Shown here one piece after another: positions 6,943 through 64,000 of a DNA stretch of 64,000 bases (the stretch's first letter is position 1; each line of letters begins with the position of its first letter). The notes below the pieces were generated by a model, which had not been told where the DNA came from, did not search any database, and saw only the letters and a program-made list of their open reading frames with translations. Origin of the DNA: an uncultured Coriobacteriaceae bacterium. GTDB taxonomy: Bacteria; Actinomycetota; Coriobacteriia; Coriobacteriales; Coriobacteriaceae. The position numbers were made by a program, and so were the translations under genes. The stretch covers positions 1 through 64,000 of the forward strand of contig CASFXG010000015.1 in NCBI GenBank assembly GCA_949298635.1, in the 5' to 3' direction.

Positions 6943-8127
6943 CTAGCGGGTATCGCCGCGGTGGGAGGTGACCCACGCGGCGCCCTGGTCGGTGAGGACG
7001 CGCTTCCTCCCGTGCTTTTTCACCAGGCCGTAGGCGTCTAGTGTAGCAAGCACGCGCGACCATGTTGGGACGGAGCTGCCATATGTCTCGGCAAGGTCCG
7101 ACGGGCCGCCTTGGCCGGCATCGGCGATATAGAAGAGAGCGCATGCAGCACGCTCGTCTATGAACGGCGTGCTTGCCGCGTGTGCGGCGGCCGGCTGCGG
7201 GATATAGGGGCTCGCTGCCCCCATGGTCGTAGGCATTCCGTACGGGTTCGGCATCCCTGCATTCGCGGGGACCGCATACGGTGAAGATGCGCCGGGCACC
7301 GCGGGAGCCATCGCTTCGGGAGCTGCTGCACCCGCTATGGGGTAGCCCTGCCAGGGGTTCCACGCCGGCGCCATACCGGGGTACGGATAGCCGGCCGGGT
7401 AGGCTTGCGTGGGGTATGTTCCAGAAGGTATGCCTGGGAAGGAAGGTGCCGCGGGCATGCCCTGCCCCTCCATGGTGTGAACATCCTCCGAGGTGAACGA
7501 CGATGCCCGTACCGCGGCACCTCGTTTCGCGTGTCCTTCAATCTCGCGCACGCGGGCGGCATCGATGCTTACGGTGACGACCGTGCCACACCCTAGGTTG
7601 TCTTCGATGGAGATGGCGCCGCCGGCGCGCTCGAGATACTGCTGGACCATGGGAAGGCCTGCTCCCGTACCGCGGATGTAGCGCTTCATAGAGCGATCCG
7701 CCGAGGTCACGCCGAACTCGAACGCGCGCTCCTTGTCGGCGATGCCGGGGCCTAAGTCGGCGAAGCGGATGGTGTTGCCGCCATCTAAGATGGAGACGAT
7801 GGGTTCCGTGAAGTGGGCGTGGATGAAGTTTTCCACCAGCTCGCGAATGATCATGAGCGGCAGCGCCCCGCCCTGTTCCTTCATGGAGCGGTATACCGTG
7901 TTCGTGACCTCTTCGAGGTAGGTACGCGGATCGCTTGGCTGTATGACGAGGATGCGCGGCGTGGACAGCAGGTCGTCATAGATGGAGATGCGGGTTGCGA
8001 AGACGGTGCTTTCCACGGCGCCTTCTCGCGCGCTGGCGTTGTCGCTCACAGGGTGCTCGCCGGTGATATGGGTGTTATCGGGTGCGGGGTCGCCGGAATC
8101 GACGAAGGGGTAGAAATCATCTGCCAT
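6943..8127 (-). CDS. GHKL-type ATPase with C-terminal winged-helix-like region
   Basis: The N-terminal half (about residues 45-195) carries the histidine-kinase type ATP-binding motifs: N-box IIRELVENFIHA, G1 box FADLGPGIAD, and G2 box RGTGAGLPMVQQYLERAGG. No phospho-accepting histidine domain, sensor or membrane segment is visible. Then comes a Pro/Met/Ala/Tyr-rich low-complexity linker (about 235-315). The final ~80 residues look like a winged helix (ERAACALFYIADAG, then SRVLATLDAYGLVKKHGRKR). It sits between oriC and dnaA on the same strand as dnaA. The domain layout suggests an ATP-dependent regulator or anti-sigma-like protein. The true role is unknown, and a link to initiation control is only inferred from position. 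Confidence 0.75.
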   Translation of the reverse strand: MADDFYPFVDSGDPAPDNTHITGEHPVSDNASAREGAVESTVFATRISIYDDLLSTPRILVIQPSDPRTYLEEVTNTVYRSMKEQGGALPLMIIRELVENFIHAHFTEPIVSILDGGNTIRFADLGPGIADKERAFEFGVTSADRSMKRYIRGTGAGLPMVQQYLERAGGAISIEDNLGCGTVVTVSIDAARVREIEGHAKRGAAVRASSFTSEDVHTMEGQGMPAAPSFPGIPSGTYPTQAYPAGYPYPGMAPAWNPWQGYPIAGAAAPEAMAPAVPGASSPYAVPANAGMPNPYGMPTTMGAASPYIPQPAAAHAASTPFIDERAACALFYIADAGQGGPSDLAETYGSSVPTWSRVLATLDAYGLVKKHGRKRVLTDQGAAWVTSHRGDTR

Positions 8128-58843: not shown

Positions 58844-60028
58844 ATGCTCAACGCGATTGAGATTTCACCGAAGGTCTGGTGGGTCGGTGGCCTCGACTGG
58901 AACGAGCGCCAGTTCCACGGCTACACCACCGAGCGCGGCATCACCTACAACGCCTACCTCATCATGGACGAGACCGTGACGCTCATCGACACGGCGAAGT
59001 CGACGTTCACCGACGAGTTCGTGCAGCGCATCTCGCAGGTCGTCGATCCCACGCAGATCGAGCTCGTCGTGACGAACCACGTGGAGATGGACCACTCCGG
59101 AAGCCTCCCCGCGATTCACCGCCTCGCGCCGAACGCCCGCATTGTGGCGAGCGCCCCGGCCGGCGTGAACGAGATCCGCGCGCACTACGGCATCGAGGTC
59201 GAAGGCGTGAAGACCGGCGACTCCATCTGCATTGGCGAGCGCACGCTCCACTTCGTGCAGACGCCCATGGTGCACTGGCCGGATAACATGGTCACGTGGT
59301 GCCCGGAGGACGGTATCCTCTTCTCGAACGACGCCTTCGGCCAACACCTCGCCACCACGAAGCGCTTCGACGACGAGAACGACCTCTGCGAGGTGTTCAA
59401 GCAGGCGAAGAAGTACTACGCGAACATCGTGTGGCCCTATGGTGTCCAGGTGCAGAAGGCTATGGCGGCGCTCGGCGGCCTCGACATTCGCCTCATCGCC
59501 CCCTCGCACGGCGTGATCTGGCGTAGCCACATCTCAGAGATTCTCGAGAAGTACCAGGCGTGGAGCACGTACCAGACCGAGGAGAAGGCCGTCGTGGTGT
59601 TCGACTCCATGTGGCACTCCACCGAGAAGATGGCGCGCGAGATCTGCGACGCGTTCATCAAGGAGGGCGTGACGGCGCAGCTCATCGACGTGAAGACCAC
59701 GCATATCTCCGACATCATGCTGTACCTCTGCGACGCGCGCTACGTGGCGTGCGGCTCGCCCACGCTGAACTCGAACATGATGCCCACCATGGCGAGCTTC
59801 CTTACGTACCTGCGTGGCCTCTCGCCCAAGAACGACCAGCGTATCGGCATCGCGTTCGGCTCCTACGGCTGGGCGCCGCTTGGTCCCAAGCAGGTGTATG
59901 CCGAGATGGAGAACATGAAGTTCAACATGGCGGTGCCTGTGGTCGCTCAGCAGTGGATCCCCTCCGAAGAGAACCTCGCCGAGCTGCAGGCCACCGTGGC
60001 GAAGATCGTCGAGGATGCCCGCGCGTAG
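58844..60028 (+). CDS. fprA: Flavodiiron protein (FprA-type A flavoprotein)
   Basis: This cytoplasmic enzyme reduces oxygen (or nitric oxide) to protect anaerobes. It has 394 residues. The N-terminal metallo-beta-lactamase-like domain carries the diiron ligands: NHVEMDHSG (H, E, D, H), VHWPDNM, LFSNDAFG and PSHGVIW. The C-terminal flavodoxin domain has VVVFDSMWHSTEKMA for FMN phosphate. It is monocistronic, with its own terminator. It precedes an oxygen-sensitive hydrogenase operon, which fits a protective role. Confidence 0.94.
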   Translation: MLNAIEISPKVWWVGGLDWNERQFHGYTTERGITYNAYLIMDETVTLIDTAKSTFTDEFVQRISQVVDPTQIELVVTNHVEMDHSGSLPAIHRLAPNARIVASAPAGVNEIRAHYGIEVEGVKTGDSICIGERTLHFVQTPMVHWPDNMVTWCPEDGILFSNDAFGQHLATTKRFDDENDLCEVFKQAKKYYANIVWPYGVQVQKAMAALGGLDIRLIAPSHGVIWRSHISEILEKYQAWSTYQTEEKAVVVFDSMWHSTEKMAREICDAFIKEGVTAQLIDVKTTHISDIMLYLCDARYVACGSPTLNSNMMPTMASFLTYLRGLSPKNDQRIGIAFGSYGWAPLGPKQVYAEMENMKFNMAVPVVAQQWIPSEENLAELQATVAKIVEDARA

Positions 60029-60286: not shown

Positions 60287-63163
60287 ATGGGTCTTATTGC
60301 GGCACTCGTCTTCATACCGCTCGCTGTAGCGGTATTGCTTATGCTGTTCCGCACCGATCGCGCGCGCGACGCCATCGTGGTCGTGTCTGCTGCCGCAATC
60401 GGCGTGGTGAGCGTCGCGACGGCGGTGGCCTATCTGGGCAAGCCGACGAGCTTCGCGTTCACGCCAGAGCTCTCGCTTGCAGGGAATTACGTCGCCGTTG
60501 CGGTCGACCTCTTCCTCTGCGGCTTCGTGTTCGTGCAGGCGATTCGCTGCCGCAACCGCACCATGCTCGTGCTCTCTGCTGTCCAGCTCGCGGTTTCGAT
60601 CTGGTGCGGGTCGTTCGCCCTGCATCCGGAAGATGCCAGCGCCGCGCCCATGTACATCGACACCCTTTCGGTCATCATGGTGCTCATCGTGGGTCTCGTG
60701 GGCAGCGCGATCTGCATCTACGCGCTCGGCTACATGAAGGATTTCCAGCATCATGAGGACGAGGCGGCGCAGAAGCGCGGCGAGCAGGCGCAAGACCGTC
60801 GCCACCAGTTCATCGCCCTCATGTTCCTCTTCCTTTCCGCGATGTTCATCATCGTGACGGCGGACAACCTCGACTGGCTCGTCGCGGGTTGGGAGATCAC
60901 CACCGTCTGCTCGTACCTCATGATCGGCTTCACGCGCACGGCGGACGCCAAGCGCAGCGCCACGCTCCAGATCAACCTCAACATGGTGGGTGGTCTGGCG
61001 TTTCACGTGGCGCTCGTGATGCTGCACATCGCGGGCGTGCCGCTTGCAATCAACAGCCTTGCCGATATCGCGGCAGGCCCGCAGGCGTCGCTGCTCATCA
61101 TGCCGCTGCTCATGCTCTCCATCGCCGGCCTCACCAAGGCGGCGCAGATGCCGTTCCACAAGTGGCTGCTCGGCGCCATGGTCGCACCCACGCCCACGAG
61201 CGCGTTGCTGCATTCATCGACCATGGTCAAGGCAGGCGTGTTCCTGCTCGTGAAGCTCGCCCCGCTTTATATGGTGTATCCGGCGGCCTCCATCATGGTG
61301 GTCACTGTGGGCGGCGTGACGTTTGTGCTCTGCAGCTTCCTCGCCATCAGCCAGAGCAACGCGAAGCGCGTGCTCGCCTATTCCACGATCGCGAACCTCG
61401 GCCTCATCTCCGCCTGCGCGGGCGTGGGCACTGCCGAGGCGGTCTGGGCGGCCGTGTTCCTCATCATCTTCCACACGGTGTCCAAGTCGATCCTCTTTTT
61501 GTGCGTGGGTACGGTCGAGCATCGCATCGGCAGCCGCAACATCGAAGACATGGACGGGCTCTTCGCGCGCCTACCGCACCTTACGCGCTTCATGATGCTC
61601 GGCATCCTCGGCATGTTCGTGGCGCCGTTCGGCATGCTCATCTCCAAGTGGGCGACGCTCGTGTCGTTCGCCGAGACGGGCAACGTAATCTTCCTCATTC
61701 TGCTCGCGTTTGGCTCGGCGGCGACGTTCTTCTTCTGGGCGAAATGGCTCGGTAAGCTCGCCGGCGTGCCGCAGCGGGCTGAAAACGTCGAGGGCGCCGT
61801 GCACAAGAGCGAGTGGTTCGCCATCGGCTTCATCGCCGTGCTGCTCCTGGGCTGCTGCTTGGGGCTCCCGGTGATCTCCACGCAGGTTGTAAGCCCCTAC
61901 CTCGAGTACGTGTTCCAGAGCAGCCCGCAGTTCATCGGCGTCGACAACATGGTCATCATGGTCGTCATTGTGGCCTTTATCGCCATCGTGCTGCTTACCC
62001 CGTGGGGGCGCGCGACCAAGAAGCGCCGCGTCGAGGTCTACCTGGGCGGTACCTGCACCGATCCCGACAGCCGCCGCTTCCACGGCGCCATGGGCCGCAC
62101 CATGACGTCCACGAAGCGCAACTGGTACATGGAAGACGTCTTCCCCGAGGGGCTCCTCACGAACATCGGCCTCGTCGTGACGACGGCCATCCTGCTCATG
62201 GCGTTCGCTGCCACCTTCATCTTCGATGCGGACTTCCTCTCGGCGAGCTCGTTCTACATGGAACGCACCGTGCTCCTCGTGGGGCCGGAGCTGCCGGGTC
62301 TTCTGCTGGGCGTCGTCGTGTTTGCCGTGTGCGCACCGGTTCTGGGCTGCCTGCTCGACGGCCTCGACCGCAAGGTGAGTGCGCACATGCAGGGACGCGT
62401 CGGTCCCAAGTTGTTGCAGCCCTACTATGATGTGCGCAAGCTGCTGGGTAAGGAAGACGCAAGCGTCAATGCCGTCGACGAGGCGTACGTGACGTGCGCA
62501 CTCATCTTCTGCATGCTCGCGGGCGGCATGTTCGTCTCGGGCTCGAACCTGCTCATGTGCATCTTCCTCGTGACGCTTGCCACGCTCTTCATCATCATTT
62601 CGGCGTACTCTGCGCGCAGCCCCTTCGCCGACACCGGCGCCGACCGCGAGTGCTTGCAGGTTATGAGCTACGAGCCCATGCTCCTCATCATGTCCGTGGG
62701 CTTCTTCACCGCTACGCAGTCCTTCGACGTGGCGCAGCTCTGGAACCTCGATATGCCGATTATCGTGTCGCTCATGCCGATCTTCTGCGGCCTCTTGTTC
62801 ATCCTCACGATCAAGCTACGCAAGAGCCCGTTCGACCTCTCGTACAGCCATCATGCGCACCAGGAGCTCGTTAAGGGAATTACGACCGAGATGAGTGGCC
62901 GCACGCTCGCCAAGGTCGAGATCATGCACTGGTGCGAGAGCGTGCTCTTCCTCATGTGGGTGGGCATGTTCTTCGTGTGGAACAACCCCGCCTCGATCGT
63001 GCTCGCCGTGGCCGTCGTTGCTGTGACCTGGTTCTTCGAGGTCTTCATCGACAACAACTTCGCCCGCATGAAGTGGCAGAGCTGTCTTAAGTACGCATGG
63101 GTCGTCGCGCTCGTCGTGGGCGTCGTGAACCTGTTCTACGTGCTCATCACCCCGTTCATCTAG
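60287..63163 (+). CDS. Fused EchA-EchB-like membrane subunit of an energy-converting hydrogenase
   Basis: The protein has 958 residues. Residues 1-~650 are a NuoL/HyfB/EchA-like proton-channel subunit (AGWEITTVCSYLMIGF, LTKAAQMPFHKWLLGAMVAP, TPTSALLHSSTMVKAGVFLL). From about 675 the chain continues as a NuoH/HyfC/EchB-like subunit (HMQGRVGPKLLQPYYDVRKLL from residue 700, and AHQELVKGITTEMSGRTLAKVE near the end). No stop or Shine-Dalgarno lies at the junction. GGAGGAG precedes the ATG. Downstream genes match EchC and EchD order, supporting a group 4 hydrogenase rather than complex I. Confidence 0.85.
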   Translation: MGLIAALVFIPLAVAVLLMLFRTDRARDAIVVVSAAAIGVVSVATAVAYLGKPTSFAFTPELSLAGNYVAVAVDLFLCGFVFVQAIRCRNRTMLVLSAVQLAVSIWCGSFALHPEDASAAPMYIDTLSVIMVLIVGLVGSAICIYALGYMKDFQHHEDEAAQKRGEQAQDRRHQFIALMFLFLSAMFIIVTADNLDWLVAGWEITTVCSYLMIGFTRTADAKRSATLQINLNMVGGLAFHVALVMLHIAGVPLAINSLADIAAGPQASLLIMPLLMLSIAGLTKAAQMPFHKWLLGAMVAPTPTSALLHSSTMVKAGVFLLVKLAPLYMVYPAASIMVVTVGGVTFVLCSFLAISQSNAKRVLAYSTIANLGLISACAGVGTAEAVWAAVFLIIFHTVSKSILFLCVGTVEHRIGSRNIEDMDGLFARLPHLTRFMMLGILGMFVAPFGMLISKWATLVSFAETGNVIFLILLAFGSAATFFFWAKWLGKLAGVPQRAENVEGAVHKSEWFAIGFIAVLLLGCCLGLPVISTQVVSPYLEYVFQSSPQFIGVDNMVIMVVIVAFIAIVLLTPWGRATKKRRVEVYLGGTCTDPDSRRFHGAMGRTMTSTKRNWYMEDVFPEGLLTNIGLVVTTAILLMAFAATFIFDADFLSASSFYMERTVLLVGPELPGLLLGVVVFAVCAPVLGCLLDGLDRKVSAHMQGRVGPKLLQPYYDVRKLLGKEDASVNAVDEAYVTCALIFCMLAGGMFVSGSNLLMCIFLVTLATLFIIISAYSARSPFADTGADRECLQVMSYEPMLLIMSVGFFTATQSFDVAQLWNLDMPIIVSLMPIFCGLLFILTIKLRKSPFDLSYSHHAHQELVKGITTEMSGRTLAKVEIMHWCESVLFLMWVGMFFVWNNPASIVLAVAVVAVTWFFEVFIDNNFARMKWQSCLKYAWVVALVVGVVNLFYVLITPFI

Positions 63164-63175
63164 GAAGTGAGTGTC

Positions 63176-63573
63176 ATGGGTTATTCTTCGAAATCGCCGT
63201 CATCGAGGTCCTCGATTCGCTCATGCCGCTCTACGACATCGAGCGCTTTGGCATCATCAACACCGGCAACCCTAAGCACGCCGACATTTTCCTCGTCACA
63301 GGCGCGGTGAACCACCAGAACATGAACGTGGTGAAGCACATCTACGACCAGATGCTCGAGCCGAAGGTCGTCGTGGCGTGCGGCATCTGCGCCTGCACGG
63401 GCGGCGTGTTCCGCGACGCGTACAACGTGATCGGCGGCGTGGACAAGGCGATCCCCGTGGATGTGTATGCGCCGGGCTGCGCGGTGCGGCCGGAGACGAT
63501 CATCGACGCCGTGCTCAAGGCCGTGGAGATTCTCGACGAGAAGGCGGCCAAGCTCGCCCAGGAAAAGAAGTAG
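63176..63573 (+). pseudogene. EchC/NuoB-like hydrogenase small subunit with disrupted N-terminus
   Basis: From about 63190 to the stop at 63573 the reading frame encodes the end of a NuoB/EchC/HycG subunit (IEVLDSLMPLYDIERFGIIN, VVVACGICACTGGVF, VYAPGCAVRPETIIDAV). The ATG at 63176 opens a different frame reading MGYSSKSP, which looks like a normal family N-terminus. The segment that should join them, holding the CxGC ligands before DIEVL, is missing and the frame is broken near 63199-63201. About 40 bases, or another 3n+1 number, may be deleted. It is either a real lesion or an assembly error. Confidence 0.75.
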
Positions 63574-63583
63574 GAGGGCGCGG

Positions 63584-64000
63584 ATGTATACGACCGAATT
63601 CGTTGATATCCCCTTGAGCGAGCTGCTCACGCGCGTGCAGACGCTCAAGCACCAGGGGTTCCGCTTCATCCAGATGTGCGCCGAGACCACGGCCGCCGGC
63701 ATCGATTTGCTCTACACGTTCTACGACGAGACCTGCGACAACGCGCTCAGCCTTTGCGTTTATGGCATCGATCACGACTCCGAGGTGCCGTCGATCCAGG
63801 GGCTCTACTTCGCGGCATTCAGCTACGAGAACGAGACGCACGATCTCTACGGCGTGAACTTCATCAACATGCAGCTCAACTTCGGTGGGAACTTCTTCAA
63901 CGTTGCGTGCGACGAGCCTATGACCATCATCACGCCCGAGATGAAGGCTGAGCGCGAGAAGCTCGCCAAGCAGCAGGCGGCTGCCGCGGCGAAGGCGCGC
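63584..64000 (+). CDS. EchD/NuoC-like 30 kDa subunit, cut by the window end
   Basis: The 139 visible residues start MYTTEFVDIPLSELLTRV, with GGAGG upstream. The complex I 30 kDa motif appears as AAFSYENETHDLYGVNF. The tail after about residue 115 is Ala/Lys-rich and continues past 64000. It follows the small-subunit gene by 10 bases. In Ech hydrogenases this subunit supports the large (NuoD/EchE) subunit, whose gene is expected next. Confidence 0.85.
   Translation, partial: MYTTEFVDIPLSELLTRVQTLKHQGFRFIQMCAETTAAGIDLLYTFYDETCDNALSLCVYGIDHDSEVPSIQGLYFAAFSYENETHDLYGVNFINMQLNFGGNFFNVACDEPMTIITPEMKAEREKLAKQQAAAAAKAR

Follow-up and report, generated by a model that had tools for sequence, protein, structure and literature searches.

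A probable recent 40-bp deletion in the small-subunit gene of an Ech-type [NiFe]-hydrogenase from a member of the Coriobacteriaceae

The hydrogenase operon and its source genome

The stretch of DNA analyzed in this work (the window; 64 kb) corresponds to positions 1–64000 of an 89,867-base contig, which belongs to a 1.93-Mb assembly made up of 83 contigs that is 86.3% complete and that may, in view of its size and completeness, be a metagenome bin. Judged on the small-subunit protein described below, the closest relatives are [Collinsella] massiliensis, Enorma burkinafasonensis, and E. massiliensis, so that the source genome belongs to the genus Enorma within the Coriobacteriaceae. The end of the window carries an operon with the gene order fused AB-C-D-E-F (Table 1), in which subunits of the NuoL-like and NuoH-like membrane types, a NuoC-like subunit, and a ferredoxin-like subunit are encoded together. 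The open reading frame (ORF) for the fused EchA-EchB subunit aligns over its full or nearly full length in three relatives from the genus. The same fusion, uninterrupted by a stop codon, is present in 53 of the 80 relatives that were compared (loci L031–L066 vs. L067–L110), and the exceptions, which are titled Eggerthellaceae, Slackia or similar, have the two parts separate, split by a stop codon, or in a locus that is cut short.

Table 1. Positions of the hydrogenase genes and related features (window coordinates unless stated otherwise).
Feature	Position	Strand	Characteristics
Fused EchA-EchB membrane subunit	60287..63163	+	958 aa, intact; single ORF with both PF00361 and PF00146 (Pfam)
Remnant 5' frame of echC	63176..63310	+	Native start retained, with 8 native residues; the following 36, up to the stop codon, are out of frame
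Junction of the putative deletion	63200..63201	+	40 bp common to every relative absent
Rest of echC	63202..63573	+	123 codons and stop; without CNGC ligands and start codon
echD, NuoC-like	63584..64000 (window end); gene ends at contig 64273	+	Intact; PF00329; 229 aa ORF
echE, large subunit, NuoD/hydrogenase type	contig 64276-65364		362 aa ORF
echF, two-cluster ferredoxin subunit	contig 65371-65922		
[FeFe]-hydrogenase, same genome	G000:C2:56975-57841 (L128)		
[FeFe]-hydrogenase, same genome	G000:C29:17371-18081 (L129)		

The large subunit retains both of the CxxC motifs that provide the Ni-Fe ligands (RTCGIC and, near the C-terminus, DPCISCTER) and it aligns end to end with MbhL of Pyrococcus furiosus; on these sequence characteristics the enzyme is identified as a true group-4 [NiFe]-hydrogenase, to the exclusion of a Ni-free relative. 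The remainder of echC matches the Oxidored_q6/NuoB family, with 92–95% identity to relatives from the genus, and with its Ech-type neighbors it is assigned by homology to the EchC/MbhJ/NuoB-like small subunits of membrane-bound, proton-pumping group-4 (Ech/Mbh-like) [NiFe]-hydrogenases, in agreement with the enzyme class named in a preliminary description of this DNA. Genes for Hyp maturation proteins are also present in the genome, where HypD was recognized by its Pfam family and the adjoining HypE- and HypF-like ORFs were named by inspection only.

Among systems of known structure, the best match is the membrane-bound hydrogenase (MBH) of P. furiosus (MbhJ and MbhL; PDB 6CFW), with E-values of 3e-29 for the small and 3e-67 for the large subunit. 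Further Mrp-like antiporter subunits are also carried by MBH. The small and large subunits of formate hydrogenlyase (HycG and HycE; PDB 7Z0S) are likewise homologous, although they match more weakly than those of MBH, and none of the ORFs adjoining the operon was seen to encode a formate dehydrogenase. The Ech hydrogenase (echABCDEF, group 4e) has its subunits A, B, C, D, E, and F in the same order as found here, whereas in the window A and B form one polypeptide, as in other Coriobacteriaceae, and C is broken.

Directly upstream of the operon, in the window (58844–60028) as well as in the three genus relatives compared, lies a 394-aa ORF that is flavodiiron-like by its sequence alone. Its homologue in [Collinsella] massiliensis (G002) contains a frame switch near residues 306–309 (L126, about 7741–7751), which is found in this species only among the relatives compared and is possibly a draft sequencing error.

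The lesion in echC

The ATG at 63176 opens the sequence MGYSSKSP, which is followed by unrelated residues up to a stop codon at 63308–63310 (44 aa in total), whereas the conserved sequence IEVLDSLMPLYDIERFG...EKK runs in another frame, from 63202 to the stop codon at 63571–63573. Past the junction the coding sequence shares 87–94% DNA identity with genus-level relatives, and its continuation in the second frame is therefore no chance match. In all of the 109 related loci (representing 81 distinct 360-nt sequences) SP and IEV are separated by 14 residues, W[LV]IHYD[GA]SSCNGCD, which correspond to 42 nt; at this place the window contains 2 nt and is thus exactly 40 bp shorter, and the best-fit breakpoint against the genus relatives falls at 63200/63201. 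Naturally short homologues, which might have accounted for this difference, are ruled out, as none of the 109 loci is without these residues. Both CNGC cysteines are among the lost residues and align with SCNGCDIE of the solved MBH small subunit; the block SPW..H...SCNGCDIE is common to MBH and to the relatives of the window and is missing from the window copy. The later two ligand cysteines are retained, so that the four cysteine ligands of the proximal 4Fe-4S cluster are not all present.

The preliminary description had read from the letters alone a split between two frames at this ATG, a junction near 63199–63201, and a loss of the CxGC ligands, with the later cysteines intact, by removal of 3n+1 bases, for which a length of 40 was guessed. 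Alignment with the related loci, none of which starts without CxGC, agrees with it on every one of these points. Its expectation that the neighboring genes are intact is also borne out for echD, echE, and echF.

The 123 codons that follow the junction are open and conserved and they include an in-frame ATG at 63223. A shortened or frame-recovered small subunit, produced by a restart at this codon or by recoding, could thus in principle work without the N-terminal ligands in a variant hydrogenase. We regard such continued use of echC as very improbable, since CNGC is kept by all of the relatives and by the solved MBH subunit, no well-placed ribosome-binding site is apparent by inspection upstream of 63223, and the altered gene occurs in just one genome, where no compensating change was seen. 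Less probable still is that a short subunit from the internal start allows the complex to persist without its proximal cluster in an ion-translocating or scaffold role other than that of a hydrogenase, which would be like an early step towards the hydrogenase-related (Ehr-type) complexes.

Origin of the missing block

The most likely explanation of these observations, to which we assign a probability of roughly 0.6, is a real and very recent 40-bp deletion in the small-subunit gene that has knocked out Ech. It ranks above the other reading of substance, clearly less probable although a serious one, in which the organism's echC is normal. The absence of the block would then reflect either a minority allele in a mixed population or an artefact of consensus or assembly, the assembler having followed a path at a hairpin that was rare, variant, or produced by skipping in PCR. 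Incompleteness of the assembly, with its many contigs and about 86% completeness, is in keeping with this second reading. A k-mer assembler, however, requires reads that span the junction, and a search of the same assembly for the missing CNGC-block motif found no further copy or stray intact fragment; no second echC copy was found in it either, at 86.3% completeness.

The frames of other genes also speak against an artefact. When 485 kb of the same assembly was sampled, full frames with no breaks were found for 96 conserved genes (119 kb), and a generally frameshift-rich assembly is accordingly rejected; the scan flags frame switches inside long alignments, so that short N-terminal losses such as that of echC would escape it, and it also listed 17 partial matches, some of which end at the edges of stretches and one of which is echC itself. 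The sequences flanking the best-fit breakpoints have no repeat in common, and hence the collapse of a repeat does not explain the junction; slippage on a short direct repeat is rejected on the same observation. Two deletions, one small and the other larger and between CATC repeats, could conceivably have given the same result, but this route needs two events.

The ratio of nonsynonymous to synonymous codon changes in the echC tail, in comparison with the relative genome G003, is 0.38, and the values for its operon neighbors range from 0.34 to 0.79. No private amino acid change is present in the tail at sites that are invariant in five relatives. Constraint on the tail is thus not relaxed, which indicates that the event is either very young or not there. 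The recency suggested in the preliminary description is in accord with the first of these possibilities, while the lack of decay elsewhere in echC and its operon is equally what an artefact or minority allele would leave.

In relatives the missing block forms a hairpin (z-scores of -3.5, -1.5, -2.9, and -1.1), and in the closest of them it consists almost wholly of hairpin-forming sequence. Because of this, the 40-bp loss might have arisen by a polymerase skipping the hairpin; such skipping could be favored during library PCR just as well as in the cell, and the hairpin-prone nature of the block is therefore also compatible with an artefact. The literature yielded nothing relevant, either for hydrogenases of Enorma or for frameshifts in echC.

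Consequences for hydrogen metabolism

If the deletion is real, the loss of 40 bp would remove WLIHYDGSSCNGCD-type residues, among which are two of the four proximal [4Fe-4S] cluster ligands, and would also shift the reading frame. With these ligands and the native start gone, no working full-length small subunit is expected to be made. The proximal cluster has a known role in group-4 hydrogenases and in complex I, and on this ground the electron path between the ferredoxin subunit and the Ni-Fe site would be cut, and the Ech complex would lose its ferredoxin-linked H2 evolution as well as its ion pumping. The same genome retains two [FeFe]-hydrogenases, which carry TSCCP and ACPGGC motifs, and hence H2 production need not be lost and would probably still proceed by means of these enzymes. 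The earlier statement that the hydrogenase is disabled thus applies to Ech, provided that the deletion is real, and does not extend to the making of H2. In addition, no match to the small subunit was found in eight near-complete genomes of the family (viz. G007, G015, G023, G042, G044, G049, G051, and G060); Ech is therefore dispensable in the family and its loss is tolerable.

The enzyme belongs to a known type of hydrogenase, and losing it to a deletion this small is gene decay of the ordinary sort. Should the missing block prove to be an artefact, it would serve as a caution against inferring gene loss from a single assembly. A survey of the gut published in 2025 has called for a better characterization of the group 4e hydrogenases (PMC12578642). 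If the deletion is real, the loss of an energy-conserving hydrogenase in a gut actinobacterium has been caught here at its first step, with one small deletion and all of the other Ech subunits still intact, and intact and broken Ech in sister species would provide a natural comparison of the role of this enzyme in fermentation beside the [FeFe]-hydrogenases.
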